The position numbers and the translations under genes are program-made. The notes beneath the pieces are model-generated. The model saw only the letters and a program-made list of their open reading frames with translations, was not told where the DNA came from and searched no databases. From positions 558,001 through 622,000 of the forward strand of contig NZ_CP048795.1 of assembly GCF_011006175.1 (NCBI RefSeq): a stretch of 64,000 nt of DNA, in the 5' to 3' direction. Positions 12,161-19,482 of the stretch are shown here, piece by piece. The stretch is from Hydrogenobacter sp. T-8 (GTDB lineage Bacteria; Aquificota; Aquificia; Aquificales; Aquificaceae). The stretch's first letter is position 1; each line of letters opens with the position of its first letter.

Positions 12161-12445
12161 ATGGTGTTTTCTACAGCTGATGGAATAATGTATAGATTGA
12201 GCGTTGCATGGGAACATCCAAGCCCTTCAAGAAAGTGGTTGATAAACTGTGGGGAACTGGTTTTAGACTTTGTCAAAGAGGAAGTGTGGAAAAGGGGAGA
12301 ACTTATCCTTCAGGAAAAAAGGGACAAGCTTAAGATGATGCTTGAGAGCTTTCTAAGGGATGAGTACGATACAAAGAGCAGAGAAAGGGCCATGAGGAAC
12401 ATTAAGCTTTTGGAGAGGGTGCAAGAGCTTCTAACATCTTCCTGA
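12161..12445 (+). CDS. Hypothetical protein, Lys/Arg/Glu-rich helical C-terminus
   Basis: 94 residues from the ATG at 12161 (alternatives: TTG 12119, ATG 12188; none has a clear ribosome-binding site). The C-terminal half is helical and charged. No family recognised. It overlaps the end of the sigma-54 activator gene on the opposite strand by 44 bases. Confidence 0.45.
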   Translation: MVFSTADGIMYRLSVAWEHPSPSRKWLINCGELVLDFVKEEVWKRGELILQEKRDKLKMMLESFLRDEYDTKSRERAMRNIKLLERVQELLTSS

Positions 12446-13760
12446 GTGTTATCCTGTTTATGCCTAAGATCCTGGCAGTTTTAGATTGGTTTTTATCCAG
12501 TAAGGTGTATGCTTCTTGAACAATAACTGAGGAAAGTTTTTTTAAAAGTTTATGGTATATTCCCTCTTCCCCTCCTTCTATAAGCCTTTTGATCTCCAGT
12601 CTGAGAAGGGTTTCAAGTTCCTCAAGACCTTCCCTGCAGTAATCTACCACCGTAAGCTCAACGTCCCTACTTTTTAGTACATCTCCACTGCTGAGAGCAA
12701 TTGCTCTCCTAAGAACGTTTTCCATCTCCCTTATATTACCAGGCCAACTGTAAGATGTAACTTTTTCCAAAAACTCCCTTGTATAACCTCTTATCCTCTT
12801 CCCCATTTCTTTAGAAAGGTTTTCTATCATACAGTTGAGCAAGATTGGAATATCCTCCTTCCTATCCCTGAGAGGGGGAATGTGTATATGAATGGTGCTT
12901 ATCCTGTAATATAGATCTTCCCTGAACTTACCATCCTTAACCAAGCTCTTTATATCTTTATTGGTAGCACTTATGAGCCTAAAATCGCAATGCACCTCCT
13001 TTGTACTTCCCAGCCTCCTTACCTTCTTTTCCTGTAGTACTCTCAGCAGCTTAGATTGCATGGAAAGAGGCAGGTCTCCTATCTCATCAAGGAAGAGTAC
13101 ACCACCTTTTGCAGACTCTATTAGCCCTTCTTTAGTATGGGATGCACCAGTAAAAGCACCTCGCTCGTAACCAAAAAGCTCTGCTTCAAGAAGTTCTGGA
13201 GGGATTGCCGAAGAGTTAATGGCTACAAAGGGACCGTTCCATCTCCTGGACAATTTCCAAAGAGCTTTGGCAAAGAGTTCTTTCCCAACGCCCGTTTCAC
13301 CGGTTATCAGAACAGGCACATCCAAAGGTGCAGCTTTACCAACGTTTTTCAGTACTTCCTTCATCTTCCCCTCTGGGTTTCCTATTATGGAGCAAAGCTC
13401 TTTACACAGCTCACCAGATAGGTTCTCACCACTGGTAAAGACTGGTATGACCTCTTCCTCGTGATAGATCACCCTCTTAGCTTCACTTATAGACATTTCC
13501 AGATCTTTAACATCAACAGGTTTCAGGAGGACATCATAAAAGCCGAGGCTTATGAGTTTCATAGTGTACCCTGGTAAACGCTTCGCAGTTATAGCCATTA
13601 TGATGTTACCATTCTCTTTTAGGTCTGGAACTGCAGAAAAACCAACAGTATCTACATCCAGTATTACCACAGAGTTCTTGATGTCATCTGGTAATTCTTC
13701 AACGCGCTCTATGCCATCTAAGTAAAGCTCGCAATCTTTTGTGTAGAGCACCACATCCAT
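12402..13760 (-). CDS. Sigma-54-dependent transcriptional activator (NtrC type) with a degenerate receiver
   Basis: 452 residues. N-terminal receiver-like domain (about 1-95) keeps the beta-3 Asp (VVILDVDT, D35/D37) and the Lys (LLKPVD, K80) but lacks the acidic pair after beta-1 (VVLYTKD). AAA+ domain: Walker A GETGVGKE (154-161), GAFTGA loop (201-206) that contacts sigma-54, Walker B VLFLDE (221-226). Fis-type HTH at the end (SKTARILGINRITLRKML). It is divergent from the sulfur-assimilation operon, whose promoter is a sigma-54 element, so it most likely activates it. The signal is unknown. Confidence 0.92.
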   Translation of the reverse strand: MDVVLYTKDCELYLDGIERVEELPDDIKNSVVILDVDTVGFSAVPDLKENGNIIMAITAKRLPGYTMKLISLGFYDVLLKPVDVKDLEMSISEAKRVIYHEEEVIPVFTSGENLSGELCKELCSIIGNPEGKMKEVLKNVGKAAPLDVPVLITGETGVGKELFAKALWKLSRRWNGPFVAINSSAIPPELLEAELFGYERGAFTGASHTKEGLIESAKGGVLFLDEIGDLPLSMQSKLLRVLQEKKVRRLGSTKEVHCDFRLISATNKDIKSLVKDGKFREDLYYRISTIHIHIPPLRDRKEDIPILLNCMIENLSKEMGKRIRGYTREFLEKVTSYSWPGNIREMENVLRRAIALSSGDVLKSRDVELTVVDYCREGLEELETLLRLEIKRLIEGGEEGIYHKLLKKLSSVIVQEAYTLLDKNQSKTARILGINRITLRKMLEALAPSPKA

Positions 13761-13847: not shown

Positions 13848-13864
13848 TTGGCACAGATTTTGCA
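13848..13864 (+). promoter_or_regulatory. Sigma-54 (-24/-12) promoter of the sulfur operon
   Basis: TTGGCAC-N5-TTGCA, an exact match to the RpoN consensus with GG and GC at the required spacing. The predicted transcription start is near 13875, and AGGAGG precedes the ATG at 13905. A sigma-54 activator is encoded divergently. Confidence 0.8.
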
Positions 13865-13904: not shown

Positions 13905-16547
13905 ATGAAGAGAGAACATTTGGAAGAGATCATAGAAAGGAATCCAAGGGAAAAGCTAAAGGCGGACAAACATCCTCTTGATATAATGGAAGACCTTCCA
14001 AGGCTCATAAGGGATGGTTATGATAAAACTCCTGAAGAGGACCTTGTACGCCTTCAGTGGTACGGACTCTACCATGATAAACCACGGATTGGGCACTTTC
14101 TTCTGAGGATAAAACTACCAGGTGGCATGTTAAGCCCGAAACAGCTTAGAGAAATAGGTTCACTTGCTAAGAATTTTAACGACTATGCGGAGCTTACAAC
14201 CCGTCAGGACATACAGCTGCATTACATAAGGCTTGATGACCTTCCTCTGGTGTTTAAAAGATTGTCCAGCGTTGGACTCTTTCCCGTTGGATCCTGCGGT
14301 GATACAGTAAGGAATATAACAAGCTGTCCTGTCGTTGGTGTAGACAAGGATGAGCTCTTTGATGTCAGAGAGTGCATAGGGGAGCTTGAGAGCTTCTTCC
14401 ACAACCCTGAGAACAGGAAGTACTTTAACCTACCAAGAAAGTTCAAGATAACCATATCAGCCTGTCCTTACCACTGCAATTATCCGGAGATGCATGACCT
14501 TTCCTTTGTTGGGATGGTAAAGGATGGAGTTGAAGGCTTTGCAGTATGGGTAGGCGGTGGGCTTTCATCAACGCCAAGGCTTGCAAGGAAGCTTGGCATA
14601 TTCATCCCAAAGGAAAAGGTCTTAGAGGTGGCAAAGGCAGTTGTAGATATATGGAGCGAAGAGCCAGAAAACAGAAAGTCCTTTGTAAAGGCGAGGATAA
14701 AGTACTTCGTAGACAAGGTAGGAGCAGAAAGGTTTAAAGAGATGCTCTTTGAAAGGCTAAGCTTCACTCCAGAATCCATTAAGGAGGAGCCAGTGGCAAT
14801 AAGGAGGAACTTTCACGTGGGGATTGGAAAACAAAAGCAGGAGGGGTTCTTCTATGTGGGTTTTCCTGTAGAAGCTGGTAGGGTATCTGGCAGTCAGCTT
14901 ATAAAGGTAGCAGAGCTTGCGCAAGCTCTTAACCTTTCCATAAGGATCTCTCAGAGGCAAAACCTGATACTAACAGACGTACCGGAGGAAAGGCTTGAGC
15001 ATGTTATAGAAGGTATGGAAAGGATAGGCTTTAGCTTGAAAAAGAGCATTCCAAGGAGTATCTCCATAGCCTGCACTAGCGACCCCTTCTGCAATTACTC
15101 TGTTGGTTCCTCAAAAGAGTGGCTTTTGGAACTTCTTAACTATCTAGAAGAAAGAATTGGAGATATAGGGGACATAGCAATAGGTGTTGATGGATGTCCC
15201 CATGCCTGCGCCCATCATTGGCTGAACGATATAGGGCTTCAGGCTACCCACATAAGACATCCAGATGGTAGTGTGGAAAGTGCCGTGAATATTGTGCTGG
15301 GAGGTGGTTATGGAAGGCATGCAAGCATAGGCAGGATTGTGGTAAAAAGGGTTCCTTTACCTTTGGCGAAGGAGTACATAGAGAAGCTCATCATAGCTTA
15401 TAAAAGCTCAGCGTATGGAAGCTTTCATGAGTTTATAAAAGCTCATTCTGATGAGGAGCTTTTAAACATCATGCAGGAAAAGAAGGTTATAAAAGAAGAA
15501 GGAGGAAAGGTAAGAGTGAGGATATTTGGGCCTATAAGCAGGTTCTTTGGCGGTCTTTCTGAGGTTGAAGTGTCTGCGAAAACGGTAGAAGAAGCCCTTT
15601 TGAAGCTTGAGGAGGAGTTTGAAGATTTTCGTGGAAAGGCCATTGATGAAAGGGGAGAGCTAAAACCCTTTTTGAAGGTTTTTCTGAATGAGGAGGACGT
15701 AAGGTTCTTACAGGGGCTTAAAACACCCGTTAAAGAGGGGGATGAGATAGCTATGTATCCAGCTCTTGCAGGAGGTTCTCCCATGTACGATGAGCTTGAA
15801 CTTCATGAGCTTGCCATTGAGTACGAGGACAAACCAGCTAAGGATGTGATAGCTTGGGCTCTTGATAGCTTCCATCCAAGGCTTTACATAGCGTGGAGCG
15901 GTCAAGCAGAGGACATGGTTCTACTTGATATGGCTCACAGGATAAACCCACAGGTTAGAGTTTTTACCGTTGACACAGGAAGACTCTATGAAGAAACTTA
16001 CAGGCTTATTGAACGAGTTTACGAGGTATACGGTTTAAGGATAGATGTTTATTTTCCAAACAGTGAAGAAGTTGAACAGATGGTACAGGGATTTGGCGTA
16101 AATCTTTTCTACAAGTCTGTAGAACTAAGACACCTTTGCTGTCATGTAAGAAAAGTGAGACCTTTACTGAGGGCTTTAAGACAGGTGGATGCATGGATAA
16201 CTGGACTAAGAAGGGAGCAGTGGGCAAGCAGGCAAAACATAATGAAAATTGAGGTAGACCATGACCACGGACAGATAGTAAAGATAAATCCCTTGGCAGA
16301 TTGGACAGAGAAGGAAGTATGGAATTACATAAAGGAGAACAAGGTTCCCTACAATGAGCTATACGACAAAGGCTTTAAAAGCATAGGATGTGCTCCTTGT
16401 ACAAGGCCCGTGTCTGAAGGTGAGGACCCAAGGTCTGGTAGATGGTGGTGGGAAAAGGATGCACCAAAAGAGTGTGGTATGCACTGCAGTTTAGAAACTG
16501 GAGGCTTTGAAAGAATAGCTGACAAAGTGCTGGGAGACATAAAATGA
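13905..16547 (+). CDS. Sulfite reductase - MoaD/ThiS-like carrier - APS reductase fusion protein
   Basis: 880 residues in one frame. (1) About 1-535: ferredoxin-type siroheme reductase with duplicated halves; Cys390/Cys396 (CTSDPFC) and Cys431/Cys435 (CPHAC) bind the 4Fe-4S/siroheme centre. (2) About 536-624: beta-grasp MoaD/ThiS-like domain ending ALAGG. (3) 627-880: CysH with Cys745-Cys746, Cys829-Cys832 (GCAPC) for a 4Fe-4S cluster and catalytic Cys857 in ECGMHC, hence APS rather than PAPS reductase. Together these convert APS to sulfite to sulfide and offer a carrier to accept it. Internal in-frame starts with ribosome-binding-like sequences exist at both junctions (GTG 15516, ATG 15783). 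First gene of an operon with SUMT and sat. Confidence 0.9.
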   Translation: MKREHLEEIIERNPREKLKADKHPLDIMEDLPRLIRDGYDKTPEEDLVRLQWYGLYHDKPRIGHFLLRIKLPGGMLSPKQLREIGSLAKNFNDYAELTTRQDIQLHYIRLDDLPLVFKRLSSVGLFPVGSCGDTVRNITSCPVVGVDKDELFDVRECIGELESFFHNPENRKYFNLPRKFKITISACPYHCNYPEMHDLSFVGMVKDGVEGFAVWVGGGLSSTPRLARKLGIFIPKEKVLEVAKAVVDIWSEEPENRKSFVKARIKYFVDKVGAERFKEMLFERLSFTPESIKEEPVAIRRNFHVGIGKQKQEGFFYVGFPVEAGRVSGSQLIKVAELAQALNLSIRISQRQNLILTDVPEERLEHVIEGMERIGFSLKKSIPRSISIACTSDPFCNYSVGSSKEWLLELLNYLEERIGDIGDIAIGVDGCPHACAHHWLNDIGLQATHIRHPDGSVESAVNIVLGGGYGRHASIGRIVVKRVPLPLAKEYIEKLIIAYKSSAYGSFHEFIKAHSDEELLNIMQEKKVIKEEGGKVRVRIFGPISRFFGGLSEVEVSAKTVEEALLKLEEEFEDFRGKAIDERGELKPFLKVFLNEEDVRFLQGLKTPVKEGDEIAMYPALAGGSPMYDELELHELAIEYEDKPAKDVIAWALDSFHPRLYIAWSGQAEDMVLLDMAHRINPQVRVFTVDTGRLYEETYRLIERVYEVYGLRIDVYFPNSEEVEQMVQGFGVNLFYKSVELRHLCCHVRKVRPLLRALRQVDAWITGLRREQWASRQNIMKIEVDHDHGQIVKINPLADWTEKEVWNYIKENKVPYNELYDKGFKSIGCAPCTRPVSEGEDPRSGRWWWEKDAPKECGMHCSLETGGFERIADKVLGDIK
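15770..15785 (+). promoter_or_regulatory. Internal ribosome-binding site and start codon for CysH alone
   Basis: AGGAGG (15770-15775), 7 bases, then ATG (15783-15785), in frame, at the exact start of the CysH domain. The AGGAGG also encodes the Gly-Gly of the carrier domain. Separate production of CysH is possible. Confidence 0.5.
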
Positions 16548-16825
16548 TCAGAGTTTGGTGTGTCTCAAAAGATTTTGAAAAGGAGCTTATAAAGAGAGGC
16601 TGGAAAGAGGGAAAGTTCGATGGCCGGAGGTGCCTAATGAAGGAATTAGGAAGCTGGTTATGGATTTGTCTCCTTTCAGACCAAGAGGTGAAACTTGTAT
16701 CTTTTCCCATAGAAGATAGCTCAAGGGTCCACTCTGAAGGTATGAGGAAATTGATAGAGGAACTGAAGGAGGTCTCTGAAGTTATGGACTTTTCCCTTTC
16801 TGCGAGGATGGAGTATGGGAGCTGA
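16544..16825 (+). CDS. Hypothetical protein in the sulfur-assimilation operon
   Basis: 93 residues, no signal peptide. Notable motifs are VWCVSKDFEKELIKRGWKEGKFDGRRCLMKE and a central LWICLL; three cysteines in all. No family recognised. It is translationally coupled on both sides: its ATG overlaps the fusion-protein stop (16544-16547) and its end overlaps the TauE gene by 11 bases. Such fixed coupling to the reductase suggests an accessory role such as maturation, carrier handling or regulation, but nothing in the sequence proves this. Confidence 0.6.
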   Translation: MIRVWCVSKDFEKELIKRGWKEGKFDGRRCLMKELGSWLWICLLSDQEVKLVSFPIEDSSRVHSEGMRKLIEELKEVSEVMDFSLSARMEYGS

Positions 16826-17576
16826 GCACATTATGTTTGCTTTTCTTGGATTTTTCATAGCCTTTGCCATAGGCCTAACTGGTGTGGGTGCTGGAACTCT
16901 CACAGCTCCTACCCTCATACTGCTTGGATTGGACCCAGCAAAAGCTGTCGGTTCAGCCCTCGCTTTTTCAGCTATCGTAAAGCTACCAGCAGGTTTTTTA
17001 CACGCACTCCATAAAAACGTAGACTACAGAGTTCTCAGGGCTATGCTGTCTGGAGGCCTTCCAGGTGTTTTCATAGGCTCTTACTTCCTTTCCAAGCTTT
17101 CCCTTGCTCAAAGCCTAAAAGGTCTGATCCTTCTGACCATAGGCCTTACCATACTCTTATCCATACTCCTAAACCTCTTTCTCCTCTTTAAAAACATGAG
17201 GATAGATATGACAGAGCACTCTTACGTATTACCTTTTGCGTGCTTTTTTATAGGTCTTGAGGTAGGCTTTACCTCGACTGGCGCTGGAGCATTGGGAATG
17301 GTGCTCCTGATCTATTTTACTCGTTTGGACACTCCAAAATGCGTTGGTACGGATATAGCTTTTGGTTTAGCTTGTTCTTTAATCGGTAGCTTTTCTCATA
17401 TGTTCTTGGGACATGCGGAGGCGAGCCTTTTCCTTCCTATGAGTATTGGTGGCCTCTTAGGTGTTTGGCTTGGAACTAAACTAACAAGGAAAATCGACCC
17501 AAGACCTTTGAGGTTCATCATATCAGCCCTGCTTTTCATAGTGGCTTTAAACCTTATCCGCAGAGGGCTTAACTGA
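16815..17576 (+). CDS. TauE/SafE family membrane transporter
   Basis: 253 residues, about 8 hydrophobic segments in two repeats. The repeated motif GLTGVGAGTLTAPTLILLGLDPAKAVGSALAFS near the start and TSTGAGALGMVLLIYFTRLDTPKCVGTDIAF later is typical of TauE/SafE (sulfite, sulfoacetate or other organosulfur anion export, or sulfate uptake in some CysZ-like uses). In this operon a sulfur oxyanion is the probable cargo. It overlaps the gene before it by 11 bases and the next by one. Confidence 0.85.
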   Translation: MGAEHIMFAFLGFFIAFAIGLTGVGAGTLTAPTLILLGLDPAKAVGSALAFSAIVKLPAGFLHALHKNVDYRVLRAMLSGGLPGVFIGSYFLSKLSLAQSLKGLILLTIGLTILLSILLNLFLLFKNMRIDMTEHSYVLPFACFFIGLEVGFTSTGAGALGMVLLIYFTRLDTPKCVGTDIAFGLACSLIGSFSHMFLGHAEASLFLPMSIGGLLGVWLGTKLTRKIDPRPLRFIISALLFIVALNLIRRGLN

Positions 17577-18352
17577 TGGGTAAAGTATACCTTGTAGGAG
17601 CAGGGCCAGGAGACCAAGAGCTTTTAACACTTAAAGCTTTAAGACTCATAAAATCTGCGGATGTCATACTCTACGACAGGCTCATAAACCAAGAGATACT
17701 TCTTTTTGCAAAACCAGACTGCGAGCTCGTATACGTAGGAAAAGAAGCTGGAAAGCATACAATAGAACAGGAGAAGATAAACGAGCTTTTGCTAAAGTAT
17801 GCTCAAACAAAGGATGTCGTTGTAAGGCTAAAGGGAGGAGATCCTTTCATCTTCGGAAGGGGAGGAGAAGAGGCATTATTTTTGGCAGAGCATAGAATAG
17901 ACTTTGAGATAGTTCCAGGGGTAAGCTCCTTTTACTCAGTACCAGCCTATGCGGGTATACCATTGACCTTTAGGGGAATATCCTCTTCCTTTGCGGTAAT
18001 AACAGGGCATGAGGACACAAGGAAAGAAAGCTCCAGCATAGACTGGAATAGCCTAAAAGGTATAAACACACTGGTTTTTCTCATGGGAGTATCAAGGAGG
18101 AAGGAGATAGCCAAGAGGCTAATAGAGATAGGAAGGAGTCCAGATGAGCCAGTTGCCTTTATAGAGAATGGGACAACTGAGAGGCAAAGGGTGATCTTAA
18201 CGAGCCTTTACGAGCTTTCCACAGACCCTCCAAAGGTGAACCCTCCAGCCGTTATGGTTGTAGGGAGTGTAGTAACACTTAGAGAATATATGAATCAGTT
18301 TTCAAAGGAGGTGAAGGTATGCTTCCAGCACCCCATGGTGGAGCGCTTGTAA
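17576..18352 (+). CDS. cobA: Uroporphyrinogen-III C-methyltransferase (SUMT)
   Basis: 258 residues, single-domain tetrapyrrole methylase. Motifs: VGAGPGDQELLTLKA at the start, LYDRLI, VRLKGGDPFIFGRGGEEA, and PAYAGIPLTFRG. It uses SAM to make precorrin-2, the precursor of siroheme, which the sulfite reductase domain encoded at the head of this operon needs. The NAD-dependent dehydrogenase/chelatase part (as in CysG) is not fused. The ATG overlaps the TauE stop by one base. Confidence 0.93.
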   Translation: MGKVYLVGAGPGDQELLTLKALRLIKSADVILYDRLINQEILLFAKPDCELVYVGKEAGKHTIEQEKINELLLKYAQTKDVVVRLKGGDPFIFGRGGEEALFLAEHRIDFEIVPGVSSFYSVPAYAGIPLTFRGISSSFAVITGHEDTRKESSSIDWNSLKGINTLVFLMGVSRRKEIAKRLIEIGRSPDEPVAFIENGTTERQRVILTSLYELSTDPPKVNPPAVMVVGSVVTLREYMNQFSKEVKVCFQHPMVERL

Positions 18353-19482
18353 ATAGAGTTGTTCCTGAAAGGGAAAAGGTGAAGATACTGATGGAGGCTG
18401 AAAAATATCCAGCTCTTTACGTTGATACTGATACACTTCTTGATATTGAGAACATAGCCACTGGAGTTTTTTCACCTCTTAAGGGGTTTATGACGGAGGA
18501 AGAGCTTAGCAGTGTTGCTCACAGGATGATCCTACCTAACGGTGATGTGTGGAGCATACCTATTTTGCTACAGGTCAAAGAGAAAGATAGTTTAAGAAAG
18601 TTGGGGATTGGGGAGAGAGTGGTTATAAAGGACAGTAGTAATAGAATAAAGGCGATAGTTGATGTTAAGGATATTTATCGCATTGATATTAAGAAAATTG
18701 CCAAGCTTGTATGGGGCACGGATAGCGATGAGCATCCAGGTGTAAATATCTTCTATTCAAAGGGTGAGTGGGCGCTAGGAGGTGATGTTTGGCTTTTGGA
18801 AAGGGTAGAATCTCCCTTTAAGCAATGGGTCTTAGAACCGGCAGAAACAAGGAAGGTCTTTGAGTACAGAGGATGGAAGACTATAACTGGATTTCAAACA
18901 AGGAACGCACCGCATAAAGCTCACGAATACCTTCAGAGGATAGCCTTAGAAATGACGGATGGGCTTTTTATAAACCCTGTCCTAGGTTGGAAAAAATCCG
19001 ATGACTTTGATTCTCATACAGTTTTAAGAGCCTACGAGTATCTCATAGATAACTACTATCCACGTCAGAGGGTCTTGCTCTCTGGACTTTCTACATCCAT
19101 GAGGTACGCAGGTCCAAGGGAAGCAGTATTCCATGCCATAGTGAGGAAGAACTTTGGATGTACGCATTTTATGATAGGTAGGGACCATGCAGGCGTTGGA
19201 AACTTTTACGACCCATACGAAGCACATAGAATATTTGATAAACTCCCCTCCGACATAGGTATAGAGATAGTAAAGGTTACTGCAGTCTTTTATTGCCACC
19301 TATGTGAAGCCATGGCTTCAGACAAAAGCTGTGGACATGATGACCATCAAAGAGTGTACGTTAGCATGACCAAGATAAGGGATATGTTAAGAAAGGGGCT
19401 CACTCCTCCAAGAGAGATGATAAGAGAGGATGTTGCTCAGCTTCTTATGAAAGGGTTTGTAGCTTCAGAGGTTGACATATAG
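18319..19482 (+). CDS. sat: Sulfate adenylyltransferase (ATP sulfurylase)
   Basis: 387 residues, homo-oligomeric Sat type, not CysDN. Motifs: QTRNAPHKAHEYLQR (ATP/sulfate binding, with the HXXH-like NAPH), GRDHAGVGNFYDPY, and a Cys/His group FYCHLCEAMASDKSCGHD that can hold zinc. It makes APS from sulfate and ATP, feeding the CysH domain of the fusion protein. A strong AAGGAGG stands 7 bases before the ATG, which lies inside the end of the SUMT gene (34-base overlap). No APS kinase is seen here, in line with an APS-type CysH. Confidence 0.94.
   Translation: MLPAPHGGALVNRVVPEREKVKILMEAEKYPALYVDTDTLLDIENIATGVFSPLKGFMTEEELSSVAHRMILPNGDVWSIPILLQVKEKDSLRKLGIGERVVIKDSSNRIKAIVDVKDIYRIDIKKIAKLVWGTDSDEHPGVNIFYSKGEWALGGDVWLLERVESPFKQWVLEPAETRKVFEYRGWKTITGFQTRNAPHKAHEYLQRIALEMTDGLFINPVLGWKKSDDFDSHTVLRAYEYLIDNYYPRQRVLLSGLSTSMRYAGPREAVFHAIVRKNFGCTHFMIGRDHAGVGNFYDPYEAHRIFDKLPSDIGIEIVKVTAVFYCHLCEAMASDKSCGHDDHQRVYVSMTKIRDMLRKGLTPPREMIREDVAQLLMKGFVASEVDI

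Follow-up and report, generated by a model that had tools for sequence, protein, structure and literature searches.

How could a sulfur carrier that works through its C-terminal Gly-Gly function from the middle of a polypeptide? The question is raised by a gene of Hydrogenobacter sp. T-8, one of the heat-loving bacteria of the family Aquificaceae, which lies in the window analysed here (64,000 nucleotides of contig NZ_CP048795.1, positions 558,001 to 622,000 of the forward strand; the genome is denoted G000 below). From an ATG start, a single frame at 13905-16547 (+) is open for 880 codons and encodes, in one chain of 880 amino acids, a sulfite reductase (SirA), a CysO-type carrier and an adenylyl sulfate (APS) reductase (CysH). 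On balance, the comparisons given below lean towards the fused protein being a precursor, which would be cleaved after the Gly-Gly and would thereby free a SirA-tethered carrier able to take up sulfide as a thiocarboxylate.

Domains of the fused protein

The three-part polypeptide had been proposed by an initial annotation made from the DNA letters; the domains assigned by Pfam and NCBIfam profiles and comparison with Aquificota relatives agree with it, and the cysteines and glycines that it had listed are all in place. Residues 1-530 (13905-15494, +) are assigned to the siroheme/4Fe-4S ferredoxin-type sulfite reductases, with two matches each to NIR_SIR and NIR_SIR_ferr. Both NIR_SIR repeats and the four cluster/siroheme cysteines (Cys390/396/431/435) are present, as in members of the SirA/NirA family, and the best sequence match in the PDB is NirA of M. 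tuberculosis (1zj8). At the other end, residues 627-880 (15783-16544, +) form a 4Fe-4S APS reductase, which matches TIGR02055 (thioredoxin-dependent APS reductase) with 271.7 bits against a cut-off of 235.3 and PAPS_reduct at 660-835 (E-value 5.9e-51), retains Cys745/746/829/832/857 as the CC, CxxC and KECG motifs, and has the APS reductase 2goy as its nearest solved structure by sequence. This is the only full CysH match found in the genome, and it must therefore be functional if the cell assimilates sulfate.

Residues 536-624 (15510-15776, +) lie between the two enzymes and end in YPALAGG, with ALAGG at 620-624 and Gly623-Gly624 closing the domain. Pfam ThiS is matched at 538-624 (E-value 1.2e-10; 42 bits against a cut-off of 22.5), and the domain alone exceeds the NCBIfam cut-offs for SAMP1 (61.1 against 60) and moaD_arch (50.8 against 49.5). 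As for the MoaD/ThiS-like carrier claimed initially, the nearest solved structures by sequence narrow it to the CysO proteins of M. tuberculosis and Amycolatopsis (4n6e, 3dwg). A fold other than the beta-grasp would have spoken against a carrier; the AlphaFold2 model of the domain (mean predicted local distance difference test score, pLDDT, of 70, from three input sequences only) matches MoaD, SAMP1, CysO (BexX-bound), Urm1 and HVO_2177 in the PDB, with Foldseek E-values down to 4.5e-7. Judged by sequence and predicted fold, the middle domain is thus a beta-grasp carrier of the CysO/MoaD kind. Carriers of this family end freely after the Gly-Gly, whereas 256 residues follow it in the chain encoded here.

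Fused, split and related forms

Of the 136 Aquificota genomes searched, nine, all Aquificaceae and from three genera, carry the full fusion (G000, G002, G006, G012, G022, G063, G065, G066 and G072), several of which are single-contig assemblies. G002 and G006 hold two copies each, the second of G002 being broken off by a contig end. The stop codon after the Gly-Gly whose discovery could have overturned the fusion is absent from all eleven copies. The fused proteins are 68-83% identical over their full length and fall into clade A (four copies, including that of the window) and clade B (seven copies). The two copies of G006 (G006:C1:164519-167128 and 1363792-1366416) belong one to each clade, and the clade-B copy is nearly identical to that of G063 (proportion of synonymous differences, pS, of 0.08 in SirA), which suggests a recent transfer of the whole operon.

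In five sister genomes (G046, G047, G049, G051 and G056), the operon is split at the Gly-Gly: the SirA-CysO protein ends two to six residues after it (ALAGG-AL, -VS, -VDNEV or -VSDEVR), and cysH starts inside the overlap in another frame. Three of 400 Chloroflexota genomes searched encode a SirA-CysO protein that stops exactly at the Gly-Gly (after LPALAGG or AMSGG), so that the carrier has the free C-terminus expected of its family, and a separate cysH is the next gene. A carrier-less SirA followed by cysH is seen in Chloroflexota and Acidobacteriota. A search of plasmids for further SirA-CysO fusions returned none. The SirA tree unites the fused genes in a single group (84/62 support) with the split group beside it. 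Adjacent to both is a Chloroflexota SirA without a carrier (L063), whereas the SirA-CysO proteins of Chloroflexota group elsewhere; in the short CysO tree, the attached carriers need two changes. A single SirA-CysO origin shared with Chloroflexota is disfavoured by both trees, which favour, without proving, that CysO joined independently there. The likely history, as read from these sequences, runs from sirA and cysH as neighbours, through sirA-cysO followed by cysH, to sirA-cysO-cysH.

Other Aquificota encode a SirA with a C-terminal TusA domain (L027:5809-8037, L009:1369-3669 and L014:1441-3747), in which the motif ECP[YF]N and the TusA cysteine are kept and a separate cysH lies nearby (directly adjacent in L027). 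These proteins resemble the fusion in bearing a sulfur carrier behind the sulfite reductase; in contrast, TusA carries a persulfide on cysteine, with no Gly-Gly thiocarboxylate, and the SirA lineage is a distant one. Sulfite reductase has thus acquired a carrier on more than one occasion, and a TusA with its cysteine kept on a distant sulfite reductase makes a sulfur-acceptor role at the carrier position more likely.

The arrangement had been called unusual, which needs to be qualified: it is not one of a kind, being the fused state of a series that is also found split, and sulfite reductases with ThiS as a C-terminal extension were noted in actinobacteria, along with class 4e sulfur-assimilation operons that hold ThiS/MoaD, JAB and E1 genes (Iyer et al., 2006, PMC1779556). 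The present locus shares with these the carrier on the C-terminal end of the sulfite reductase and the sulfate-assimilation operon; however, the carrier is terminal in actinobacteria, while cysH is fused behind it here. In G022 alone are the carrier, SirA, CysH, Sat and E1 joined in one operon (moeB lies 9 nucleotides behind sat), and JAB and TusA are encoded elsewhere in the genome, which departs from the class 4e arrangement. No description of a SirA-CysO-CysH triple fusion was found in the literature searched, of which subscription journals were mostly no part. As far as searched, the three-part chain is therefore new as an architecture, its pieces (SirA-ThiS fusions and JAMM-cut MoaD-MoaE) being known.

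The internal Gly-Gly and its possible release

The tail of the carrier is its most conserved part. In ten full-length fusions, 7/7 columns of YPALAGG are invariant, against 35/82 (43%) in the rest of the domain and 0/3 for residues 625-627; the ratio of non-synonymous to synonymous substitution rates (dN/dS) of the domain is 0.04-0.10 in informative, non-saturated pairs, similar to that of both enzymes. Together with the conservation over the full length, these values exclude chance. A tail motif that would matter only for recognition by an E1 and a protease is kept despite its internal position.

Precedent for such an arrangement exists. In M. tuberculosis, MoaX (MoaD-MoaE) requires a cut that falls between Gly82 and Ser83 (PMC4326299), and a Deinococcus JAMM protease cuts a MoaD-MoaE protein (DR2607) and leaves a C-terminal glycine (PMC8832034). 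The features of such JAMM-processed, linear ubiquitin-like fusions recur here, namely an internal Gly-Gly, a small residue behind it (Ser or Ala in all 11 copies; Ser in MoaX) and a JAMM protein in the genome; in contrast to both, an APS reductase takes the place of MoaE, an enzyme stands in front of the carrier and cleavage is only predicted. The initial annotation had pointed to three partners, all of which were found in the genome. One MoeB-type E1 (P0003, 271 amino acids) is without a rhodanese domain, one JAMM protein (P0002) has the complete E...HxHP...S..D metal motif and resembles 2kcq and 2kks, and a CysM (P0004; TIGR01138 score of 473 against an equivalog cut-off of 394) adjoins a siroheme-synthase-like gene. 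The genome further encodes a stand-alone CysO paralog that ends in GGYR. In this family, most stand-alone CysO proteins end in Gly-Gly and a short variable tail, so that trimming is already expected for them.

In the reading favoured here, the precursor would have arisen by in-frame fusion of the older neighbours sirA-cysO and cysH, with CysH sitting in place of the short, JAMM-trimmed tail behind the Gly-Gly of related carriers. A JAMM/Mec-type metalloprotease would cut after Gly624 following translation, freeing CysH, which would turn APS (from Sat) into sulfite, and leaving SirA with a C-terminal CysO carrier that ends in -GG. SirA, going by its family, would reduce sulfite to sulfide. By analogy to CysO and MoaD chemistry, the MoeB-type E1 would adenylate the -GG carboxylate, on which attack by sulfide would produce the thiocarboxylate; the tethered carrier may thereby catch sulfide at its site of production and deliver it for amino-acid synthesis, either to a CysM-type synthase or to a different acceptor, the carrier adduct then being hydrolysed, presumably by the JAMM protein. 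A bolder version can be offered tentatively, in which the chain is a self-supplying sulfur-delivery precursor that unites the sulfite maker, the sulfide maker and the acceptor, the JAMM cut would couple the release of CysH with the arming of the carrier, and the thiocarboxylate would serve as donor for cysteine and possibly for an Aquificaceae homocysteine route.

Several points weigh against a cleaved, sulfide-accepting precursor. Cleavage, thiocarboxylation, channelling and the acceptor are all deduced from sequence and analogy. The E1, JAMM and CysM genes either occur almost throughout the family or show no linkage to the fusion, so they may serve only the stand-alone CysO or molybdenum cofactor synthesis. 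Carrier-less SirA relatives (L063-L065) exist and are presumably functional, and in the full-length AlphaFold model the junction (residues 616-635) has a pLDDT below 50 and is not confidently ordered.

A rival account keeps the carrier internal, as a docking or assembly module: with E1, CysM or the stand-alone CysO as its binding partner, it would keep CysH and SirA together in a single complex, in which CysH would pass sulfite to SirA and no thiocarboxylate would form on the carrier. Enzymes that act consecutively in a pathway are commonly fused so that an intermediate is channelled, purifying selection acts on the whole CysO surface, and the stand-alone CysO remains to serve as the real carrier. 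A Gly-Gly would be superfluous in such a module, however, whereas within the domain YPALAGG is under the strongest constraint, beside a junction that varies, and the split and Chloroflexota carriers end at or near the Gly-Gly; we therefore regard this account as rather unlikely.

The junction itself raises a further alternative, namely that CysH is translated separately. The codons of Gly623-Gly624, GGA GGT (15771-15776, +), encode the predicted cleavage and adenylation end, invariant as a residue pair in all fusions, and the same six bases form a Shine-Dalgarno sequence. In the split genomes, GGA GGT is the Shine-Dalgarno sequence of cysH, with the ATG 5 or 7 nucleotides on and out of frame; in clade A, a spacing of 6 nucleotides (GGA GGT TCT CCC ATG) puts the same ATG in frame as Met627 (15783-15785, +), leaving only two residues between the last glycine and the normal CysH start residue. 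As the spacings differ by one nucleotide, one inserted or deleted base is enough to fuse the genes. CysH could accordingly start at Met627 from GGAGGT, yielding a long chain plus free CysH, and the fusion would then be a near-neutral by-product of an overlapping pair that lost its frame offset. Consistent with this, all four clade-A fusions and all five split genomes have kept GGAGGT, against 1/16 stand-alone cysO genes, although the copies are related and the counts hence suggestive only. The ATG, in contrast, which is kept in all four clade-A copies, is gone from all seven of clade B, where GGAGGT is drifting (four of the seven no longer have it) while the protein-level Gly-Gly is unchanged; a candidate start in clade B is an in-frame ATG eight codons before the Gly-Gly. 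Further, the carrier end of the long chain would stay blocked. As an account of the fusion, separate translation is accordingly less likely still than a docking module.

Part of an initial claim needs refining, which held that the internal Gly-Gly must be freed by cleavage or separate translation. The need to free it stands; separate translation falls away as a remedy, since a separate CysH start leaves CysH on the long chain, so that only cleavage or a premature stop exposes the Gly-Gly. In clade B, moreover, the absence of the start codon speaks against the idea that separate translation could by itself rescue the carrier, which was rejected. Separate translation of CysH and cleavage can nevertheless coexist in clade A, in which extra starts at Met627 may add free CysH without freeing the carrier.

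It is very improbable that the middle domain is a relic serving as an inert linker: such a role would suit a primary product that lacks the free C-terminus on which carrier chemistry depends, but the low dN/dS and a tail invariant at all seven positions across lineages that differ by about 30% led to its rejection. The one-nucleotide difference in spacing between the fused and split states might speak for a sequencing or assembly error, by which a frameshift or stop codon separating two genes was erased. Such an error has a negligible chance and is rejected because the frame is equally open in nine genomes, of which several are single-contig.

The operon and the sulfur economy of the cell

About 40 bases upstream of the fused gene lies a sigma-54 (-24/-12) promoter of the operon, TTGGCACAGATTTTGCA (13848-13864, +), the sole exact match to YTGGCACN5TTGCW in the 64 kb window; the -24/-12 motif is found at the same place in 12/12 orthologous operons, fused and split. 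An open reading frame for an NtrC-type, sigma-54-dependent regulator runs divergently (12402-13760, -) at a conserved position, as the probable regulator of the operon, and such a divergent gene adjoins the fused gene in all fused loci whose upstream flank was read, as well as in split and SirA-TusA loci. The perfect promoter and the divergent NtrC-type gene suggest a dedicated, sulfur-responsive regulator.

Downstream, the start of a conserved 93-amino-acid protein (16544-16825, +) overlaps the stop of the fusion (ATGA); nearly all the operons read, whether fused or split, have kept its gene, and a Pfam search with the G022 ortholog gave no match. Three conserved neighbours follow, as identified from their reading frames and sequence inspection: a TauE/SafE-type membrane protein (16815-17576, +), CobA, the uroporphyrinogen-III methyltransferase for siroheme supply (17576-18352, +), and Sat, the ATP sulfurylase that would provide APS for CysH (18319-19482, +). 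Since APS reductase, Sat and CobA make this an operon of sulfate assimilation, the first domain of the fusion most likely acts as a sulfite reductase; the genome has a separate gene, away from the fusion, for a NirB-type nitrite reductase.

Some further observations concern the partner genes. In about ten Aquificaceae genomes (L102, L105, L106, L110-L113, L115, L119 and L137), a threonine-synthase gene is followed after about 15 nucleotides by a stand-alone cysO, and in a Chloroflexota genome (L180:4440-6322) two such genes are about 400 nucleotides apart; this hints that carrier-bound sulfur has a part in amino acids derived from homoserine. The JAMM gene is directly behind an aspartate-semialdehyde dehydrogenase gene in G000 and G014 (L126:5655-7090; L076). 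A Chloroflexota cluster (L180:7943-11787) holds cysM, a cysO-moeB fusion (with the carrier Gly-Gly internal and the E1 behind it), cysO, cysM and a JAMM gene. Just upstream of moeB in G000 (L127:4600-5420), repeated reading frames encoding LLIYRVELK probably represent an array of clustered regularly interspaced short palindromic repeats (CRISPR).

The closest functional parallel is the cysteine pathway of M. tuberculosis, formed by CysO, MoeZ, CysM and Mec (PMC3227635). Both systems have a carrier of the CysO kind (3dwg and 4n6e are among the best matches by sequence and fold) and E1, CysM and JAMM classes in the genome; unlike in M. tuberculosis, the carrier here lies inside a sulfite reductase-APS reductase chain, the E1 has no rhodanese domain and the genes are scattered. 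As to possible acceptors, Price et al. (2018, PMC5764234) list Aquifex aeolicus as having none of the known homocysteine pathways, and in the whole genome of G000 neither a convincing PF01053 enzyme (of the MetB/MetY/MetZ type) nor PF01837 was found. Carrier-bound sulfur is therefore a candidate donor for homocysteine.

The study of CysO called the sulfur source of its thiocarboxylate unknown (PMC3227635). A sulfite reductase with its own CysO-type acceptor, strongly selected although another enzyme is fused after the Gly-Gly, speaks for sulfide being captured directly from the reductase, which becomes testable on one protein. Further, the series from split to fused operons, in which the Gly-Gly codons are also the ribosome-binding site, suggests a route from an overlapping gene pair to a processed polyprotein.

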